A stretch of 64,000 bases of DNA from Halobacteriovorax sp. JY17 (GCF_002753895.1 NZ_NJER01000001.1:434001-498000); one strand, 5' to 3'; counted from the first letter of the stretch, positions 54,271 through 64,000 are shown. The notes: generated by a model not told the origin, from the sequence alone. Program-made: numbers and translations.

Positions 54271-55218
54271 ATGTCACAAAATACAGAAAGAAAAGTTCCT
54301 GAATTAAGCTTACTAAGTTATGTGAATGGGACAACTGCTGATCAAGTTAAATTCGTTGATGATATTATGATTGGGCTTAAAGATTATGGATTTATTGTTT
54401 TAAAAGATCACACTGTGGATCAGTCAAAAGTAGATAAGGCCTATGAGTACTTAAGCGAATTCTATGCACTTCCTTCTGAGATTAAGAAAAAGTACTCAGG
54501 CGATAACGGCGGACAACGTGGATATACTCCTTTTAAAGTTGAGCATGCAAAGAATAATGACAATCCAGATTTAAAAGAATTCTGGCATGTTGGGCGTGAG
54601 CTTGCAGCAACTTCTCAGTATAAAGGTGTCTATCCTGAAAATGTTTGGCCAACAGAGATTCCTGAGTTTAAAGAAACATTTCTACAACTCTATAACTCTA
54701 TGGATACTACTTCCGCAATTTTACTTGAAGCAATTGGACGTGGACTTGATGTTCCTGCAAATTTCTTCAATGAAATGATTAATGACGGTAATTCAATCCT
54801 AAGAGCAATTCACTATCCACCAACTAAAGGTGAAGATACGAAGAATTCAATTAGAGCAGCAGCTCACGAGGATATTAATTTAATTACAATGCTAGTTGGA
54901 GCAACGGAGTCGGGGCTTGAGCTTCTAGATCACGATGGGACTTGGCTAGCAGTTGATTCAAAGCCTGGAGAAATTGTTGTTGATACCGGGGACATGATGA
55001 GCAGACTTACTAACGATGTTCTTCCTGCAACTACTCACAGAGTTGTAAATCCAACAAATGATGGTTCTAGAAGATTCTCTATGCCTTACTTTGTTCACCC
55101 ACACTCAAAAGCGAATCTCTCTTGCTTATCAAGCTGTGTTGGAACTGGAGCGAAGTACGAAGATATTACAGCTGGAGACTTCCTAGTTCAGAGATTGAAA
55201 GAAATTGGTCTTTATTAG
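54271..55218 (+). CDS. 2-oxoglutarate/Fe(II)-dependent oxygenase, isopenicillin-N-synthase family
   Basis: 315 residues with the double-stranded beta-helix fold. N-terminal part: PELSLLSYVNGTTADQVKFVDDIMIGLKDYGFIVLKDH. Facial triad: H199 and D201 in AAAHEDINLITML and H256 in LPATTHRVVNP. The co-substrate arginine is R268 in SRRFSMPYF. Family members hydroxylate, desaturate or cyclise small molecules using 2-oxoglutarate and O2, or use O2 alone as isopenicillin N synthase does. The substrate is unknown. A hairpin after the gene (55237-55265) separates it from the diiron operon, so it may or may not belong to the same pathway. Confidence 0.9.
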   Translation: MSQNTERKVPELSLLSYVNGTTADQVKFVDDIMIGLKDYGFIVLKDHTVDQSKVDKAYEYLSEFYALPSEIKKKYSGDNGGQRGYTPFKVEHAKNNDNPDLKEFWHVGRELAATSQYKGVYPENVWPTEIPEFKETFLQLYNSMDTTSAILLEAIGRGLDVPANFFNEMINDGNSILRAIHYPPTKGEDTKNSIRAAAHEDINLITMLVGATESGLELLDHDGTWLAVDSKPGEIVVDTGDMMSRLTNDVLPATTHRVVNPTNDGSRRFSMPYFVHPHSKANLSCLSSCVGTGAKYEDITAGDFLVQRLKEIGLY

Positions 55219-55236
55219 TAATAACTTCAGATAGTT

Positions 55237-55265
55237 AGAGGGTGTACAAGTTCTTTACACCCTCT
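55237..55265 (+). terminator. Hairpin after the oxygenase gene
   Basis: AGAGGGTGTA pairs perfectly with TACACCCTCT around a nine-base loop, 19 bases after the oxygenase stop. No T-run on either strand, so it is a weak terminator or an mRNA 3' end stabiliser. Confidence 0.5.
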
Positions 55266-55338
55266 GTAACAATTCCACTTACTAAGTAATTATTTCTATT
55301 TACCTCTAAAATTACATAATTAAACTTTAGAGGTAAAT

Positions 55339-56343
55339 GTGAACTTTGATATCTACGATGAGCAGAAATTAGCTCGCCAATTACAAATTCAAAAGAAGAA
55401 GGCCTGGGATATTGAAACCGATATTAACTGGTCTCAGGGAATTGATCTTAGTAAATCATTCCTACCTTTAAATAATGTAAATACTCTCTTTAAAAATGCA
55501 ACACCTGAGCAGCTTCGAGTTATTTCGCAATTGATGGGACTCATTGTCGCTTCGACGATTTCTCAGCTTGAAAATGTTGCTTATAGATTAAAGGTTCCTG
55601 TTTGGGAAAACTTTCTAAGAAAGCATCCAGTAAACCCAGAGCTATTAGAACTCGGTGAACAGTTCTTTGAAGAAGAAAAGAAGCATTCAAGGGCCTTTAA
55701 TAAGTATATTGATCTCTTTGCTAGTGAAGTAAATATTGATCCAGTGGATTTAAAGAGATTTCTTCCAAAGGCACATAACACTGCTATTGAAAAAATTTAT
55801 ACACTCAATTCTAAAGTTGGTGGCATGGCCATGTGGTGGCTAATTTCTGCGGTAGAAGAAGAGTCAATCCTCTTCTATCACTTACTAAATGAAGTAAAGG
55901 AAAACGTTGATCCACTTTACTATAATTTACACCGCTGTCATTTTGAAGAAGAAGTAAGGCATAAGAGCTATGCTCATATGATGTTAGAAGTGTATAACGA
56001 ATTTGTGAATACTCCTTCGTCTTACGTCTTTAAGAAAGTAGATTTTATTCTAGCAGAAGTTCTAAATATGACTTGGACTTTTTCTCAGCTCTTAAAAGTT
56101 AAGGAGCTTAAAAAGTATAAGAATCACCATGAATTCTTCAATACTCTAAGTAGTTGTATGGATTTATTAGAAGGTAAGTCTCAACTAGATATCTTGTCGG
56201 CGCTCTTTCATTCAACGCCGTATATTTCTCATACGATCCATCTTTCAGAGCATGGGCATATAAGAGAATTATTAAAGAGATATAATACTAGTAAATTGCC
56301 ACTTCCTAACTCTAGGATTGGGGAGATTCTATGTACTGTATAG
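55339..56343 (+). CDS. AurF-type diiron oxygenase
   Basis: 334 residues, starting at GTG (an AGAGG tract lies about 6-10 bases upstream). Diiron ligands follow the AurF/CmlI pattern in a ferritin-like helical protein: E78 in SQLENVAY, E113-x2-H116 in EEEKKHSRAF, a glutamate in VEEESILFY (about 173-175), and H201-x3-E205-x2-H208 in HFEEEVRHKS. This H-x3-E-x2-H end distinguishes it from many other ferritin-like diiron proteins. Known relatives oxygenate aryl-amines, but the fold is used for other oxidations. It begins an operon whose next genes overlap: alpha/beta hydrolase and two desaturases. Confidence 0.75.
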   Translation: MNFDIYDEQKLARQLQIQKKKAWDIETDINWSQGIDLSKSFLPLNNVNTLFKNATPEQLRVISQLMGLIVASTISQLENVAYRLKVPVWENFLRKHPVNPELLELGEQFFEEEKKHSRAFNKYIDLFASEVNIDPVDLKRFLPKAHNTAIEKIYTLNSKVGGMAMWWLISAVEEESILFYHLLNEVKENVDPLYYNLHRCHFEEEVRHKSYAHMMLEVYNEFVNTPSSYVFKKVDFILAEVLNMTWTFSQLLKVKELKKYKNHHEFFNTLSSCMDLLEGKSQLDILSALFHSTPYISHTIHLSEHGHIRELLKRYNTSKLPLPNSRIGEILCTV

Positions 56344-57173
56344 ATTCTAAGTTTAGAAACGGGAAAGACATTTACTTCATTAATGAATGCTATGATGAAG
56401 ACCGAGATATTATTCTTATGGTACATGGTTTTCCTGATGACGCTTTTGGTTTTTCTGCTCAAATTGAGAGCTTGAAAGATAGATTTAATATCATTGCTCC
56501 ATTCATGCACAGTGTGCTCAATGGCGAAAGCACAAGTACTGAGAGAATAGCTCCTCGGGAGCTTATTCATGATGTTCTCTTTCTCTTAAAGGAAGTGAAT
56601 CCAACTGGTGAGAAGAGAGTTTTTCTCATGGGACATGATCTAGGATGCTTTACTTGTACAGCAATTGCTCAAATATCTCCTCATCAAATAAAGGGAATCG
56701 TCCATATTAATGGGTTAGGACTTCAGCAATTCTATAATAGAAGATTTAGCTTAAAGCAGTGGATGAAGTCTTCATATGTTCTATTCGCTCAATTTAATTT
56801 AGTAAGGCTCATTGTTTCTAAGTTCTTTCCGAAGCAATTTTTAAATATCATTTATAAATTATCTTATGTAGAAAAAGAGAATGACCTTTATAAGAAAGAT
56901 AAGAAAGTCTTCTCTTCTATCTATGTTTACAAGTATCTCTTTAAGAAAACGCTAGGACTTATTGGTTCACCAACAGTGAAGCTATCTGTACCGACACTAT
57001 TTTTATGGGGTAATAGAGATAACTTCTTAGAAATTCCAACACTAGATGAAGTTGATAAATTCTATGATAGCGCGCAGGTGAGAGTTCTTCCTGGAGGGCA
57101 TTGGATTCATCACTGTGCCAGCGAGAAAGTAAATAGAATCTTGCAAAACTGGAAAGGATTTAGTTATGAATAA
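56331..57173 (+). CDS. Alpha/beta hydrolase (epoxide-hydrolase/dehalogenase-like)
   Basis: 280 residues. VHGFPDDAFGFSAQI holds the oxyanion region. The nucleophile elbow is GHDLG at 101-105, so the nucleophile is Asp (D103), as in epoxide hydrolases and haloalkane dehalogenases. A conserved His lies in LPGGHWIHH near the C-terminus and acidic DN residues in LWGNRDNFLEI could complete the triad. A variable cap (about 130-200) would set substrate choice. It overlaps the diiron gene by 13 bases and the first desaturase by 8 bases, so the four genes are translated together. Confidence 0.85.
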   Translation: MYCIDSKFRNGKDIYFINECYDEDRDIILMVHGFPDDAFGFSAQIESLKDRFNIIAPFMHSVLNGESTSTERIAPRELIHDVLFLLKEVNPTGEKRVFLMGHDLGCFTCTAIAQISPHQIKGIVHINGLGLQQFYNRRFSLKQWMKSSYVLFAQFNLVRLIVSKFFPKQFLNIIYKLSYVEKENDLYKKDKKVFSSIYVYKYLFKKTLGLIGSPTVKLSVPTLFLWGNRDNFLEIPTLDEVDKFYDSAQVRVLPGGHWIHHCASEKVNRILQNWKGFSYE

Positions 57174-58053
57174 GTTTAAAAGAGATGAGTACTATCTATT
57201 AAGATATTCTATAATTCACTGTCTAGTCTTTCTTAGTTTATCAGCTTTACTATTTAATCTTAAGGGAATAGATCTTAGCTTTGATTTACAAATGGTGGAT
57301 GGATTACTAGTTATTGGGGGACTCTTTCTTTGTGGACTTCCGTCAGGTCTATTACATAATTGCGCTCACCGAAATGTTGGAGCGAGATGGTTTAATGACT
57401 TAGTTGGAGAGTTCCTAGGAACAGTAATGCTCTATGGTTATAGAGGATTTTCTCTGGGACATATGTTTCACCATAAATTTCCTGATAACCCAAAGTTCGA
57501 TCCACATCCTCCAAGAGGATATTCATTCTTAAGATTTGTGGTTTCTCCAATAGAGGCCACTCTTATAATTATTGAGAGGGCCTATTATGAAACTTTTGGA
57601 GAGAATAAGAAGTCAAAGACGATTTTACAGACTTCAAGATTAGTCTTTAATATTTCAATTCTCTTGAAGTTATCTTTTTGGTTCTTACTTTTTGGGGCAA
57701 AGGTATTTACACTTTTCTATCTAGTTCTCTATATTTCAAATATCTTTGTATTTGCTCATATTAACTTTGCTACACATATTGAAAATGAGAATGGAGATTC
57801 AGAAATTGTTAACTTAAATCATAATCTCTACTATAAAGCCGTAAATAGGATTTCCCTTGGCGGATACTTTCATAAGAATCATCACTTAAAACCTAGGGCG
57901 TTTAACCCGGCTAAGATAGAATTTAAAGAGAGTAAGAGCTTAGTTACTTATTGTCCTCCAATAGATCTAAAGACCCCAAAGAGAGGGCCTCTCCTATCGT
58001 TTACTTTTGTTAATGGTCTTGAAACTCTAACGCAGAAACTTAATTTGGATTAA
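57166..58053 (+). CDS. Membrane fatty-acid-desaturase-type diiron enzyme (first copy)
   Basis: 295 residues with three to four membrane spans. Three histidine boxes match the membrane-bound desaturase/hydroxylase family: H64-x3-H68 (HNCAHRN), H99-x2-H102-H103 (GHMFHHKF) and H236-x2-H239-H240 (HKNHHLKP), with an extra His in VFAHINFATHIEN. The NPKFDPHPPRG stretch after the second box is shared with the next gene. It oxidises an acyl or related lipid in the inner membrane. Overlaps the hydrolase gene by 8 bases. Confidence 0.87.
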   Translation: MNKFKRDEYYLLRYSIIHCLVFLSLSALLFNLKGIDLSFDLQMVDGLLVIGGLFLCGLPSGLLHNCAHRNVGARWFNDLVGEFLGTVMLYGYRGFSLGHMFHHKFPDNPKFDPHPPRGYSFLRFVVSPIEATLIIIERAYYETFGENKKSKTILQTSRLVFNISILLKLSFWFLLFGAKVFTLFYLVLYISNIFVFAHINFATHIENENGDSEIVNLNHNLYYKAVNRISLGGYFHKNHHLKPRAFNPAKIEFKESKSLVTYCPPIDLKTPKRGPLLSFTFVNGLETLTQKLNLD

Positions 58054-58055
58054 TT

Positions 58056-58862
58056 ATGAATAAGTATAGAAAAGATAGAAATTACTTCTTAAATTACTTT
58101 AATGCCAATATTCTCGTTTTTGGCCTCTTAAATATTTTCTTAATTCTATTTAAGAAGGGATTATTTGAAAATAATTTTGCAATTGAATTTCTTTTCGTCA
58201 TTCCTCTTGGACTAGTCTTTGGTCTTGTGATTGCGACAGCTTTTCATAATGCTAGTCATGGTAATATTAAACCAAGAGTTCTCAACACAATTATTGGAGA
58301 ATTTTGTGGGGCCTTCACTCTTGATGGAATGAGAAATTTTAAGGTGGGCCATATGCTTCACCATATTCATGCAGATGATCTAGAGCTTGATCCTCATCCT
58401 CCACACGGTCTCACTTTCTTTGAGTTTATTAAACTTTCTAAAGATAGAACAATTCAAGTTCTAATTAAAGAATACTATAAGCATCACGGAGAAACGGAAG
58501 AGTCTAAGAGTAATATTAAACTTCAAATTCTCTCTTATAAAGTTGGCGTTGCCTTAAAAATACTTTTTTGGTTTGCTCTCTTTGGTCCAGCTCTCTTTGT
58601 GACTTTCTATATTCCTTCTTTTATGAGCTACTTTTTTGGTTTTGCTCACTTAAATTATATTTCTCATGGAAATGATGAAGAAGGTGAAGGCGAAATTTTA
58701 AATCATGATGGGGGAGTCTTCTTTAGCGTGATGAATATGTTAACTTCAGGTGGTTACTATCATAAGAATCATCATAAGTATCCAGGTCTCTATAACCCTT
58801 CAAGATTGGATAAATTAAAATCTAATGCCAACAGAGAACTTAGAATTTACAATCCCAGTTGA
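58056..58862 (+). CDS. Membrane fatty-acid-desaturase-type diiron enzyme (second copy)
   Basis: 268 residues. Same architecture as the preceding gene, with histidine boxes at the same residue numbers: H64-x3-H68 (HNASHGN), H99-x2-H102-H103 (HMLHHIH) and H236-x2-H239-H240 (HKNHHKYP), plus LDPHPPHG. N-termini also correspond (MNKFKRDEYY and MNKYRKDRNY). It is therefore a tandem paralogue that has diverged, so it probably acts on a different position or substrate. Its 3' end overlaps the convergent outer-membrane protein gene by 48 bases. Confidence 0.87.
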   Translation: MNKYRKDRNYFLNYFNANILVFGLLNIFLILFKKGLFENNFAIEFLFVIPLGLVFGLVIATAFHNASHGNIKPRVLNTIIGEFCGAFTLDGMRNFKVGHMLHHIHADDLELDPHPPHGLTFFEFIKLSKDRTIQVLIKEYYKHHGETEESKSNIKLQILSYKVGVALKILFWFALFGPALFVTFYIPSFMSYFFGFAHLNYISHGNDEEGEGEILNHDGGVFFSVMNMLTSGGYYHKNHHKYPGLYNPSRLDKLKSNANRELRIYNPS

Positions 58863-59717
58863 TTGCTCGTCTCCTGTTGTAAATTCTTCATTGGCAACAA
58901 TATTTTCAATTTGAAGCTCAGCTATAAAAGCGTAAGATGCCTTATCTGGCGCAGTTTCATACCCAAGTCTAAAGTAGGGAAGAAGTGTGGCAGAGCCTGA
59001 TTTTGTACTATCTCCAACTTCTGTTGATGATTTTCCAATACCAGCTCCAAGACCTGCGTAGATATGACTTCTCGTATTTCTAATCTGATTGAAGTGATAA
59101 GTCACATCTCCTATGAGAAAATTTCTAGTCGAGGGAATTGATCTCTCTGGGTTAACACCTTTAGCAGTATCACTATCAAATCTTACACCGCCTCCAAATT
59201 CTAGATGCCTATTAATTCTTTTAGAGTAAGTGGCTTCAAGGTGGATTGATGTTCTAGATTCGAGTGATTCTGCTTGAACTTCTGAAGTTGATTGCGAGAG
59301 AGAAATACCCCAGGATGCCCTTAAGTTGACATAACCTCTCACAATATTTCTTAGATAGCTGTCCTCTTGTTTCTTCTCGACCTCTCTTAATTTAGAGAGT
59401 GCGACCTCACTCCAAATTCTTTCAAGAGAAGATGTGTAAGTGACAATTTCATTTATTTTAAATGGAACAGTGGCTTCCTTATCGATAAGACTCCAAAGAG
59501 AGTAGTATCTAGTCACTTCAGTTGCTCTGGCCGTAAAGGAAATATCTACAGTAGAGAAGAGTGAAATTTGACCTTTGGAAATTCCATAATCTCTTCCTTT
59601 TCTAATAACAAATGTCTTCTTTGTATTTGAAACTGATTGGACGATAACCAAATTCTCATTGGCCAGGGCCCATGAGCTAGAGAAAAATAAGAAAATTACG
59701 ATTAAATATTTATTCAT
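58815..59717 (-). CDS. Putative outer-membrane beta-barrel protein
   Basis: 300 residues with a signal peptide (YLIVIFLFFSSSWALA). The first part of the mature protein (about 20-110) is a small domain with NTKKTFVIRKGRDYGISKGQISLF. The rest alternates strand-like segments, such as ASWGISLSQSTSEVQAES, HLEATYSKRINRHLEFGGGVRF, HIYAGLGAGIG and LPYFRLGYETA, and ends in FSVGIRF, with a C-terminal Phe typical of outer-membrane barrels. Probably an 8-strand type barrel. The 3' 48 bases overlap the desaturase gene on the other strand, which is unusual in this window. Confidence 0.75.
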   Translation of the reverse strand: MNKYLIVIFLFFSSSWALANENLVIVQSVSNTKKTFVIRKGRDYGISKGQISLFSTVDISFTARATEVTRYYSLWSLIDKEATVPFKINEIVTYTSSLERIWSEVALSKLREVEKKQEDSYLRNIVRGYVNLRASWGISLSQSTSEVQAESLESRTSIHLEATYSKRINRHLEFGGGVRFDSDTAKGVNPERSIPSTRNFLIGDVTYHFNQIRNTRSHIYAGLGAGIGKSSTEVGDSTKSGSATLLPYFRLGYETAPDKASYAFIAELQIENIVANEEFTTGDEQSTGIVNSKFSVGIRF

Positions 59718-59981: not shown

Positions 59982-62900
59982 ATGACAAAGTATTGGTTCA
60001 AAATTCTTTTACCACTTTTTGTTCTAGGCCTTCTTTCTTCATGCGTTGGAGAAAAAAAGGGAAAGAATCCAAAATGTGCAACGGGAACAGCTTTTGATAA
60101 GCTGAGCCAGAAGTGCGTTAATTTTGGTAAGGCCCCTACTTCGACTCTTGATGTTGTTAATCTCTCTGAAGATGATCCAATTACAACTTTTACTTTAAAA
60201 TATACAGATGACAACAATGACGATGCTTCAAGTTGTCAGGTTTTTGATAGTGAGTCTGATATCGAATTAAGATCTCCGCTTTTGTCGACGATTTATGCAG
60301 ATGTTGATGCATTGGTGAGTGAAGTTGCAAAGTGTGCAAATCATATCAATGCTATGACTTTTCCTGTAGAGAGTGCAAACTCTTTATCTCTTCTTGCTTT
60401 ATTAGAAACTGCTCGAGATGGAGTAAAATCAACGGATATTACTACTAGTATGGTAGCAGCTCTTAACCTCTTTGTGACAAGAGTGACTAACCTTGCTAAT
60501 TACTGCCAGTCCCTTTCAAGTCTACCAACCTCTCAATTCTACGGGGAATCAGCAGTAAACGAATTAATTGAAGTTTCAAAGAAGAAGGAGTGGATTGAGA
60601 ATAGATGTTATTGCGCAGGAGGCGTATGTTCTTCTGAAATTGTTCTTGGGAAAAACCTAAGCGGCTCTTACGGCGTATCATATAATATTTCAGATGGAGT
60701 AGATGGAACCTCTCTAACAAAGCAACTTGGTATTAACGTAGTGGCGGTCAATGATAGTCCTATAGCTAAAGATTTCTATGTAACTGGTAATGAGAGCACC
60801 ACAGTATCTGCTGCGCCAATTTCTTTTATTATCCCAGCAGCGAGAGATGTAGAAGATGATCTTTCTCCGTTCTTTAGTTACCAGCTTGTTACTGCTCCTA
60901 CAAACGGAGTTATTTCTGGTTGTGCTCTTGCAAATGATGGATCTTTAAGCACTGATAGAACTTGTATTTATACTCCTAATGACAATGACGCAGGAGTAGT
61001 TACTGCTGTTGGTAAAGAAAATACATTAACAATTCCAACTTCGGCAGCAAATAATAATTTAATTTTCACTTCAAACGTTATTGGCCCTCAGGGTAATGAC
61101 ATTGATATTAAACTCTCTCAACATCCTCTTCTTCAAACTGGTAGTAATGTTAAAGTTGAAGTAGTAGGTCGAGCGGTGACTGTTTATATTGAAGATAATG
61201 TCACTTTGATTAATGACATTATTACCGCAGTAAACAACGATATAGAAGCATCATCAATTGTGACAGCTTCTGCAACTAATGGAATTAACGAAGCTATGGG
61301 AACTACTGCTAGTAGTGACATGACTTCTGGTGGAGTAGCTGCTTTTGACAACTTTACTTACAAAGTAAGTGATGGACAGTCGTTGAGTCAGAATATCGGG
61401 ATCATTACGCTAGATGTATTTTTACAAGATGACCCTCCTGTCGCAGGAACAGTTCCAGCGGCTTCCTTAATATTTAATGAAGACACTACTCAAACGGTTA
61501 GGCTTTCTGTTACTGATTCTGAAGGTGATACCGCAACGGCCTGTAGCGTGACTCCTACAAACGCTAATATAGTAGTTAGTACTCCTTGTTTGTGTCCTGC
61601 GGGCGAACTTTATTGTGATGTAGGCTTAACTCCTGCAGAAAACTTTGTAGGAACGGCTCTATTTAACTGGACTATTACAACTACGGGGACGGCAGGTCCT
61701 CAGGCGTCTATAAGTAAATTATCTCCTGTAACCGTTAATAGTGTTAATGATGCTCCATTTGCTAAGAGTGTTGCTGTTGATTTAGGTGCAGAGTCTAGTA
61801 CTGCAACCCCTGATTCTTATATTTTTAATTTATCCGATAGTGGTGCTTCTCTTGGAGTTGATCTTGATGGGGATGCTCTAAATTATGAACTCACAAGCGC
61901 TCTTGGTGGAGCAACTTTGACGGGATGTATTTCTGGAACAGTCCTTCTTCCTGGAGCAAATTGTTCTTACACTCCTGCTGATGGAAATATGAACGGGGTT
62001 GCTACAAAGGCAACTAATACTTATGTTGTTGGCGGTGGAAGTATTGTTTTTGAAGCTCTTCACGCTGGAGAGAATATGAATGGTGTAGATATCATTATTC
62101 AGGACTCTGTCATTGCTGATAGTTTAGGAACATTTGTTTCTGTTGATAGTAATTCTGCTACAGATATTAATGTTAATGTCTTTATAAATTTAGGTGTAAC
62201 AACTCTTGCCGATATTTCAGCCGCAATTCTAGCGGATCCTTATGCAGGACAATTAATCGCGACTCCAACAGTGGTCCTGGGAACTACTCTTGCTACTGCT
62301 GGAACAATTACATTAGCAGGAGCTGTGAATGCTACAGATATTTTAGAATACAAAGTTACAGACTCTACTGGTGCTATTGCATATGGTTCAGTTCATTTAA
62401 ATTTAACAGTAACAGATGACTCACCAGTTGTTTGCCCTTATTCTGACTTTGTTGACGCTCCTGAGTGTGGTCTTGCTGGATGTCTTGGAACTACAACTCC
62501 AGTTTCTAATATTAAACCAAAGAGTATCGGTGTTCTCTATTATGATAAGGGATCAGCTGTTTGTTATAGAAGTACAGGTATTTCTTCAACTAATGATTGG
62601 GAAATTATCACTGACTTCACAAGTATTATTGAAAAGAAAGTCGTCAATCAAAATGGTTATGTTGAAATAGATAATATTAGAATTGATGAGGGGGGAGCAG
62701 ATACTGTTGAAGATGCAGATACTATCTCTATTAAAGACATCACAATTGCTGATGGTGGAATGGGACTAATTCCTAGAAAGTCCGCCAATATTCAAGTCTT
62801 CTATGATGGAGCTTCTGTTGCCCTCGCTCCGGCCGTTCCTGGAGTAGGTGTTCCTATGACTGGAACTCTTCCTGACGGTGCCGCTAGTTCAGATGAACTG

Positions 62901-64000
62901 CCAGTTAAAGTAAAAATCATTCCAAGTGATGGGGTTACTGGGACTGCTGTTGTAACAATTACTTTTACTGATGGTGTGAACGATGTGGATCTCGCCATTC
63001 CTGTTGAGATTACTGATGTCGCCGTTCAACATAAGGGATGGGCGAATATCGTGGCAATGGGTCCTAAGGTCGATAAGAGTGGAAATGTAAAAGATGCTAA
63101 TTATGTTTGTAATTATAGTGAAACAAAGTGCGATAGTGGAGAGTCTTGTTCTGGTGTAAGCGTTCCTACTGCCAATATTTCCGCCGACGAAGTAAACGCT
63201 ATCTACTACGAACAACCATCTGTTGCTAAGCCTAATGGGCAGTGCTACTACGCAAGTGCAACGGGAAATTCAAACTGGATTCCTTTCAATTCATATTGTA
63301 ACATGACGGCTAGCTACTACGATTCAGCTTGTTCAACTGCAACTTGCTTAGATAGTGCAGCACCTGCTGATGAACCAGAGAATCTTAACACATTCTTTAC
63401 AGACCTTCAGTACGATAGTGTTAATCAAATTGCACAGACGACTTGCTATAGATCTATTGGTAGAGCTCTTCCTTCTGGAGCAGCTCTAAGCCCAGCTCAA
63501 ATTGCAAACTCCTGGCAAGAGTATAAAGGGACAGGATCAGTTGAGCTCCGTTGGAATACAATGCTCTTAACAGGGACGGGAACAATTAGTGGTTTTAATA
63601 TTTTCAGAAGACTTTCTCTTGAAGAGTTTGATTACAAGAGACCAATTAATAAGAACCTAGTTACAGCTTTTACAAATCAGTATATTGATAATAGTTCTAA
63701 TTCTAAATTAGGACCTGTTCCAGATACTGTTTATTTTTATGAAGTTGTTCCTGTTGTTTCGACAGGTACGCCTGCGCAAAATGTTCAAATTAGATCTTCT
63801 GACTTTGATAAAATTGTTCTAAGAGTATTAGTACCTGGACAAAATAAAGTTCTTGTTCCAAGAGATATCGTAAATATCACTCAATGTGGTAAGTTGTTAG
63901 ACTCTTCGGGGTCTGGAAGTACCTACGAGTATGACTCAGGACTTCAAACCTTTACTTGTCCATACGAAGGTCCTGGAGATACTGGAGCAGTTTCTGGTTC
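59982..64000 (+). CDS. Giant lipoprotein with cadherin/Ig-like repeats (3' end outside window)
   Basis: The frame is open from the ATG at 59982 to the window edge, at least 1339 residues. The start has a GGGAAG tract a few bases upstream. A lipobox (LLPLFVLGLLSSC) makes it a lipoprotein, anchored at the outer membrane. Repeated units carry cadherin/VCBS-like marks: NVVAVNDSPIAKDFYV, DGQSLSQNIGIITLDVFLQDDPPVAG, VNSVNDAPFAKSVAVD, DSPVV and similar linkers, each following an Ig-like beta sandwich of about 110-200 residues. Cysteines occur in scattered pairs. Such proteins are adhesins or surface binders in marine and predatory bacteria; the ligand is unknown. Confidence 0.9.
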   Translation, partial: MTKYWFKILLPLFVLGLLSSCVGEKKGKNPKCATGTAFDKLSQKCVNFGKAPTSTLDVVNLSEDDPITTFTLKYTDDNNDDASSCQVFDSESDIELRSPLLSTIYADVDALVSEVAKCANHINAMTFPVESANSLSLLALLETARDGVKSTDITTSMVAALNLFVTRVTNLANYCQSLSSLPTSQFYGESAVNELIEVSKKKEWIENRCYCAGGVCSSEIVLGKNLSGSYGVSYNISDGVDGTSLTKQLGINVVAVNDSPIAKDFYVTGNESTTVSAAPISFIIPAARDVEDDLSPFFSYQLVTAPTNGVISGCALANDGSLSTDRTCIYTPNDNDAGVVTAVGKENTLTIPTSAANNNLIFTSNVIGPQGNDIDIKLSQHPLLQTGSNVKVEVVGRAVTVYIEDNVTLINDIITAVNNDIEASSIVTASATNGINEAMGTTASSDMTSGGVAAFDNFTYKVSDGQSLSQNIGIITLDVFLQDDPPVAGTVPAASLIFNEDTTQTVRLSVTDSEGDTATACSVTPTNANIVVSTPCLCPAGELYCDVGLTPAENFVGTALFNWTITTTGTAGPQASISKLSPVTVNSVNDAPFAKSVAVDLGAESSTATPDSYIFNLSDSGASLGVDLDGDALNYELTSALGGATLTGCISGTVLLPGANCSYTPADGNMNGVATKATNTYVVGGGSIVFEALHAGENMNGVDIIIQDSVIADSLGTFVSVDSNSATDINVNVFINLGVTTLADISAAILADPYAGQLIATPTVVLGTTLATAGTITLAGAVNATDILEYKVTDSTGAIAYGSVHLNLTVTDDSPVVCPYSDFVDAPECGLAGCLGTTTPVSNIKPKSIGVLYYDKGSAVCYRSTGISSTNDWEIITDFTSIIEKKVVNQNGYVEIDNIRIDEGGADTVEDADTISIKDITIADGGMGLIPRKSANIQVFYDGASVALAPAVPGVGVPMTGTLPDGAASSDELPVKVKIIPSDGVTGTAVVTITFTDGVNDVDLAIPVEITDVAVQHKGWANIVAMGPKVDKSGNVKDANYVCNYSETKCDSGESCSGVSVPTANISADEVNAIYYEQPSVAKPNGQCYYASATGNSNWIPFNSYCNMTASYYDSACSTATCLDSAAPADEPENLNTFFTDLQYDSVNQIAQTTCYRSIGRALPSGAALSPAQIANSWQEYKGTGSVELRWNTMLLTGTGTISGFNIFRRLSLEEFDYKRPINKNLVTAFTNQYIDNSSNSKLGPVPDTVYFYEVVPVVSTGTPAQNVQIRSSDFDKIVLRVLVPGQNKVLVPRDIVNITQCGKLLDSSGSGSTYEYDSGLQTFTCPYEGPGDTGAVSG

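Follow-up and report, generated by a model that had tools for sequence, protein, structure and literature searches.

An uncharacterized operon of an AurF-fold diiron protein, an epoxide-hydrolase-type protein, and two membrane desaturase-family proteins in Halobacteriovorax and relatives

In a 64,000-nucleotide stretch of the genome of the marine predatory bacterium Halobacteriovorax sp. JY17 (NZ_NJER01000001.1:434001-498000; here, the window), four consecutive genes encode an AurF-fold diiron protein, an epoxide-hydrolase-type alpha/beta hydrolase (EH), and two membrane proteins of the di-iron desaturase family (Des1 and Des2). Our analysis shows that they form a real, conserved, and uncharacterized operon, which is present or absent as a whole in relatives. 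The enzyme families are known; their combination is an uncharacterized new arrangement. The operon unit, the predicted families, four apparently intact active sites, and the obligate pairing of the diiron and EH genes are established at the level of sequence. The source genome comprises 3.47 Mb in 5 contigs, and the window has a G+C content of 36.6%. The four genes, in window coordinates and with the basis of each assignment, are as follows.

55339..56343, + strand: AurF-fold diiron gene; GTG start, 334 amino acids (Pfam AurF and PF10118, AlphaFold2 model)
56331..57173, + strand: EH gene; 280 amino acids (profile search, conserved residues)
57166..58053, + strand: Des1, membrane di-iron desaturase-family gene; 295 amino acids (PF00487, His boxes)
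58056..58862, + strand: Des2, membrane di-iron desaturase-family gene; 268 amino acids (PF00487, own clade)

A four-gene unit in Bdellovibrionota

A preliminary description of the window, made from the sequence alone, had proposed that the four genes are made together and that the same order be sought in other Bdellovibrionota. Among the 369 genomes of this phylum that we surveyed, 10 carry all four genes in that order (G000, G001, G003, G002, G023, G039, G101, G102, G107, and G108). A contig scan that used the window diiron protein as sole query detected no relatives; an alignment-based scan yielded 25 loci. The flanks of the operon are the same as in the window in G001 and G003, and its neighbors in G002 and G023 are unrelated. 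Recurrence of four families in one order in 10 genomes with varied flanks is far beyond chance. An apparent break in the diiron gene of G039 was dismissed, as the assembly merely has a stretch of N there.

The congener G004 lacks the four-gene block at the same site. Its copies of the gene upstream of the operon, which encodes a 2-oxoglutarate (2OG)-Fe(II) dioxygenase, and of the gene downstream are 92% and 79% identical to those of the window, respectively, and lie about 50 bases apart. The missing segment is as follows.

55221..58836, no strand: segment that G004 lacks in its entirety at the corresponding site (blastn aligns the flanks only, to 55220 and from 58837)

Because G004 retains the 2OG gene without the block, and because the 2OG gene and the operon are on different contigs in G002, the 2OG gene is a neighbor that lies outside the unit. 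Co-occurrence in relatives and loss as one block thus give good support to the proposal of a single operon; a lack of such co-occurrence, which the preliminary description had named as refuting it, was not observed.

The open reading frame (ORF) coordinates also reproduce the close packing noted in the preliminary description: the diiron and EH genes overlap by 13 bases, the EH and Des1 genes overlap by 8 bases, and 2 bases separate Des1 from Des2. A purine-rich site precedes the GTG start (55339) of the diiron gene. Both overlaps are also present in G001, G003, and G002, and the 13-base one in G023 as well; retention of these overlaps is compatible with translational coupling. Promoter-like sites around the operon are no more numerous than in shuffled sequence and are therefore uninformative on transcription.

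In G023, 17 bases at the end of Des2 are shared with a fifth gene (L014 4274-5422), which encodes a membrane acyltransferase (Acyl_transf_3). This may hint at transfer of the operon's product in the form of an acyl group. In G108, a second, divergent desaturase pair is transcribed away from the four-gene operon (L025 4912-6521, which corresponds to L096 6435-8044).

Predicted active sites of the four proteins

The diiron protein matches the Pfam AurF family (PF11583) with 39.0 bits (cutoff, 29.6), some relatives falling under the cutoff, and matches PF10118 marginally, with 35.3 bits (cutoff, 33.2), relatives in L034 and L022 reaching only 18 to 20 bits. Seven diiron ligands (four Glu and three His: E78, E113, H116, E173, H201, E205, and H208) are retained by virtually every complete relative. 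They include the E-x2-H (E113-K-K-H116) and H-x3-E-x2-H (H201...E205...H208) motifs that had been read from the window, and these are likewise conserved in relatives. The gaps between successive ligands are 35, 3, 57, 28, 4, and 3 residues, compared with 35, 3, 57, 27, 4, and 3 in AurF, whose ligand positions are given in part in PMC12101540.

A sequence search of the PDB with the diiron profile did not match AurF or CmlI, and the fold was therefore compared instead. The solved structures closest to the AlphaFold2 model (mean predicted local distance difference test [pLDDT] score, 89) are those of CmlI (Z score of 17.9 over 273 residues) and AurF (Z score of 16.8 over 284 residues), followed by R2-like oxidases (Z score of 15.7). 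This ranking rests on a second aligner; Foldseek alone gave E values of 0.004 or worse and placed ribonucleotide reductase R2 and R2-like oxidases first. Thus, the protein shares its fold and seven ligands, at nearly AurF spacing, with the arylamine N-oxygenases AurF and CmlI, but it is only 12 to 14% identical to them, has Glu in place of Asp at second-shell positions, and is accompanied by an EH and membrane desaturases rather than by an antibiotic pathway. The preliminary description had called it an AurF-type diiron oxygenase with the motif pattern of AurF-type N-oxygenases. The fold and the ligands bear out the AurF-type label; N-oxygenation is not implied, given the great sequence distance from AurF and CmlI and the lipid-oxidation neighborhoods of PF10118 relatives (see below).

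The hydrolase matches Abhydrolase_1 (54.2 bits, far above the cutoff), and its best solved relatives in a profile search are epoxide hydrolases (5ng7, E value of 4e-36; 4io0, E value of 1e-25). The nucleophile D103, recognized in the preliminary description, is conserved in 35 of 35 sequences, as is the HGxP oxyanion motif (HGFP in the window). The catalytic H257 is present in all 32 sequences that reach that position, the acid D230 is Asp in 31 sequences, Glu in 2, and Asn in 1, and the lid tyrosines Y149 and Y200 are found in 35/35 and 33/33 sequences, respectively. The catalytic residues and both tyrosines align with those of the Bacillus megaterium epoxide hydrolase (BmEH). With every one of these residues in place, the predicted epoxide-opening role, already suggested in the preliminary description, is well supported. 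The window EH differs from soluble epoxide hydrolases such as the metagenomic 5ng7 and BmEH in that it is always paired with a diiron oxygenase gene and in that the nucleophile is followed by Leu (GHDLG), whereas most of those enzymes have Trp; the residue is Leu or Ile in all nine aligned proteins. Its best NCBIfam match is of the EphD type (PRK05855/NF004514), at 50.6 bits against a cutoff of 455. Mycobacterial EphD is a fusion of an EH with a short-chain dehydrogenase (SDR), whereas the window EH is unfused and its operon lacks an SDR gene; the EH and SDR occur as separate genes in another version of the locus (see below).

The two membrane desaturases that had been placed at the end of the operon match FA_desaturase (PF00487) with 73.5 bits (Des1) and 62.8 bits (Des2; cutoff, 29.7), and their His boxes are intact. 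Those of Des1 are HNCAH, HMFHH, and HKNHH, and every box histidine is invariant in 24 of 24 desaturase sequences. The AlphaFold2 model of Des1 (pLDDT, 88) resembles AlkB (Z score of 10.2) and stearoyl-CoA desaturase (SCD1; Z score of 8.7). Des1 and Des2 share histidine boxes and fold with membrane fatty acid desaturases, AlkB, and SCD1, but they are short (268 to 295 amino acids) and have no sequence match in the PDB. Neither reaches any NCBIfam equivalog cutoff, the models for the DesA delta-5 desaturase and the CrtR hydroxylase giving 16 to 19 bits against 475 to 500. Across genomes, Des2 forms its own clade (support, 100/99) in a tree that includes one of the two other desaturases of the genome, the one recognized by the model; its two outgroup rows are long branched, and its root is uninformative. 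Des1 and Des2 are separate lineages, so the duplication is older than these genomes; they are old paralogues inherited with the four-gene version.

A diiron-EH core with exchangeable tails

We identified 31 diiron loci in 30 Bdellovibrionota genomes, and an EH gene lies directly 3' of the diiron gene in all of them. The EH gene had seemed to be missing in G286 and G322, a conclusion rejected when a six-frame search, the only one to do so, recovered it in both. Behind the pair are two desaturase genes (10 loci), one desaturase gene (2 loci, in G017 and G125), genes for an M24-family metallohydrolase (M24) and an SDR (16 loci), or the end of the contig (3 loci). The Des1/Des2-type pair occurs together with M24-SDR in none of the 31 loci. 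G002 has one locus of the two-desaturase kind and one of the M24-SDR kind. In the tree of diiron proteins, the two-desaturase version is a single clade (support, 89/97). The diiron and EH genes are thus the true core, an obligate pair, and the tails are interchangeable.

M24 proteins encoded next to the diiron and EH genes (L015 6788-7657 and relatives) retain all five metal ligands (D120, D131, H203, E255, and E268) as well as H78; they therefore resemble active metallohydrolases, in a context where such enzymes were not expected. A gene for a distant PF00487 desaturase comes after the M24-SDR genes of G286 (L105 8584-9432), which links desaturation to this version of the locus too.

A similar set of genes exists on plasmids. 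A Dietzia plasmid (NZ_CP099713; L080 30-4646) has four consecutive genes, for an M24 protein, a fused EH and SDR, a member of PF10118, and a flavin/[2Fe-2S] reductase of the PDR/VanB type, and M24, EH-SDR fusion, and PF10118 genes adjoin on Embleya and Burkholderia plasmids (L079 4695-9609 and L081 6875-10600). Of the three plasmid loci examined, those of Dietzia and Embleya have the reductase gene alongside. This set is apparently an uncharacterized module. The Dietzia M24 protein is 35% identical to that of Halobacteriovorax. Neither the window diiron protein nor Des1 matched anything in plasmid searches; in hhalign, PF10118 aligns with the window diiron family as a distant relative (Prob 87, E value of 4e-6), with the ligands from E113 onward in register.

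PF10118, annotated as a family of predicted metal-dependent hydrolases, has the same ligand pattern (ExxH, E, HxxEExxH) as the window family and also keeps company with M24 and EH-SDR fusion genes on the Dietzia, Embleya, and Burkholderia plasmids. It differs in its QExxH motif (Q88-E89 is invariant in 8 of 8 PF10118 proteins), which the window family lacks, and in its partners, the reductase noted above being adjacent in Dietzia and Embleya and desaturases being absent from the plasmid loci examined. PF10118 genes adjoin those for reductases, SDRs, an acyl-CoA ligase, and EphD-like EH-SDR fusions, and one plasmid locus is near beta-oxidation and acyl-CoA ligase genes. PtmU3, considered as a possible PF10118 relative, was discarded because it is an amidohydrolase-superfamily protein. 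Together, the plasmid sets, the loci in the phylum, and the PF10118 alignment indicate that a diiron oxygenase, an EH, an SDR, and an M24 protein form a recurrent set in three phyla, a wider module on which the desaturase tail is the Bacteriovoracales variation.

Candidate chemistry and genomic neighborhood

We tentatively favor a reading in which the four genes, as one transcription-translation unit, encode enzymes that oxidize a hydrocarbon chain in steps; this would most likely be the fatty-acyl chain of a lipid. Formation of an epoxide and its opening to a diol would be the likeliest chemistry for the presumed substrate and product. Des1 and Des2 would desaturate (or hydroxylate) the chain; the diiron oxygenase, a soluble AurF-fold protein, would use O2 and electrons to add oxygen to it, most likely as an epoxide; and the EH would open the epoxide through an ester intermediate at Asp103, giving a vicinal diol. 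The membrane enzymes probably act first, diiron oxygenation next, and EH opening last. Electrons for the diiron protein would come from elsewhere in the genome, which encodes one protein with an NAD_binding_1 reductase domain, outside the operon. An acyl substrate is suggested by the desaturase family, by the lipid-oxidation neighborhoods of PF10118, and by the lack of a squalene/phytoene synthase. As the preliminary description first guessed, reasonably and with partial support from our results, we infer an oxidized-lipid or fatty-acid-derived product.

Several observations weigh against this proposal. The operon has no genes for a carrier protein, an acyl ligase, or a redox partner; the structures that best match the diiron model are those of arylamine oxygenases (CmlI and AurF); the M24-SDR tail is not obviously lipid chemistry; and desaturase-family sequence by itself does not separate desaturation from hydroxylation. 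In addition, a ligand set of three His and four Glu is described in PMC12101540 as mostly confined to N-oxygenases. Because this set has so far been typical of such enzymes (PMC12101540), N-oxygenation is the main rival: the diiron protein would act, like AurF and CmlI, on the amine of a lipid or amino acid derivative, and the desaturases and hydrolase would modify the acyl moiety or cleave off an ester. The seven ligands with their nearly AurF spacing and the top-ranking folds fit this explanation, and in the alternative tail an M24 metallohydrolase with five intact metal ligands could release an amine. We nevertheless consider it unlikely, since AurF and CmlI were unmatched in the PDB profile searches, an obligatory EH partner is unexpected for N-oxygenation, and PF10118 proteins, despite having this ligand pattern, occupy lipid-oxidation neighborhoods. 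Somewhat more doubtful still is a catabolic or protective role, in which oxidized, unsaturated, or foreign prey lipids are broken down or detoxified and no product is built. The hosts belong to genera that prey on other bacteria, the distribution is patchy with a clean absence in the congener G004, and the PF10118 plasmid locus near beta-oxidation and acyl-CoA ligase genes would suit such a role; against it, desaturases, of which there are two, are anabolic in most known settings, and the operon contains no beta-oxidation or uptake genes.

Modification of a carotenoid, a hopanoid, or another isoprenoid by CrtR-like hydroxylases appears improbable. Des2 does match the beta-carotene hydroxylase model CrtR, weakly (19 bits against a cutoff of 475), but a search of the source genome for SQS_PSY (squalene/phytoene synthase) found none, whereas the same search was positive in seven control genomes, and such substrates are disfavored accordingly. 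The least credible alternative, and a very remote one, is radical halogenation of an acyl chain by a CylC-type enzyme, followed by displacement of the halide by the alpha/beta hydrolase. CylC and NocO are AurF-like diiron halogenases that have three His ligands in common with the window protein and act on acyl chains as acyl-acyl carrier protein (PMC12101540), and haloalkane dehalogenases have the same fold as the hydrolase. Yet CylC-type halogenases are defined by QExxH and HxxDExxH motifs (PMC12101540), and in 36 of 36 sequences of the window family the glutamine is replaced by Glu or Asp (E112 in the window, before E113) and is never found; the later motif is HxxEExxH, and there are no carrier-protein genes nearby. 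Haloalkane dehalogenase identity was itself rejected, as Leu rather than Trp directly follows the nucleophile Asp and the EH lid tyrosines are present.

Returning to acyl-chain oxidation, we propose, a shade more guardedly, that a hitherto undescribed oxidation module exists in several phyla, consisting of an obligatory pair of an AurF/PF10118-type diiron oxygenase and an EH, which would oxygenate and then open, with exchangeable tails (a pair of membrane desaturases in predators of the Halobacteriovorax type, an M24 hydrolase and an SDR elsewhere), and that the product in the predators may be an oxidized polyunsaturated or diol lipid new for bacteria. The preliminary description knew of no pathway with this gene set, and we also found no such operon described in the open-license literature on AurF with epoxide hydrolases, PF10118, EphD with M24, or Bacteriovorax desaturases. 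The gene set is small and testable and would tie an AurF-fold diiron enzyme to epoxide chemistry, broadening the reactions of this fold past N-oxygenation and halogenation. With its exchangeable tails, the fixed diiron-EH pair offers a route to the common first step, and the operon points to a lipid or metabolite that has gone unrecognized in predatory bacteria, a group whose lipids have received little study.

The 2OG-Fe(II) dioxygenase gene directly 5' of the operon (54271-55218, + strand; DIOX_N and 2OG-FeII_Oxy) encodes a third type of nonheme iron oxygenase at the locus. It is 82 to 93% conserved within the genus, above the level of the operon, and is retained where the operon is missing. 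Between it and the operon is the following feature, and G004, which has no operon, has a similar hairpin 3' of its copy of the 2OG gene.

Arms 55237-55246 and 55256-55265, + strand: 10-bp perfect inverted repeat without a T-run (read from the sequence)

On the other side, Des2 and a convergent outer-membrane barrel-like gene (58815-59717, - strand) overlap tail to tail by 48 bases (58815-58862). From about 59983 to 64000 (+ strand), the window contains the beginning of a gene that extends past the window end and encodes a lipoprotein-like surface protein, very long and rich in repeats; long ORFs likewise occupy this position in G001 and G003.

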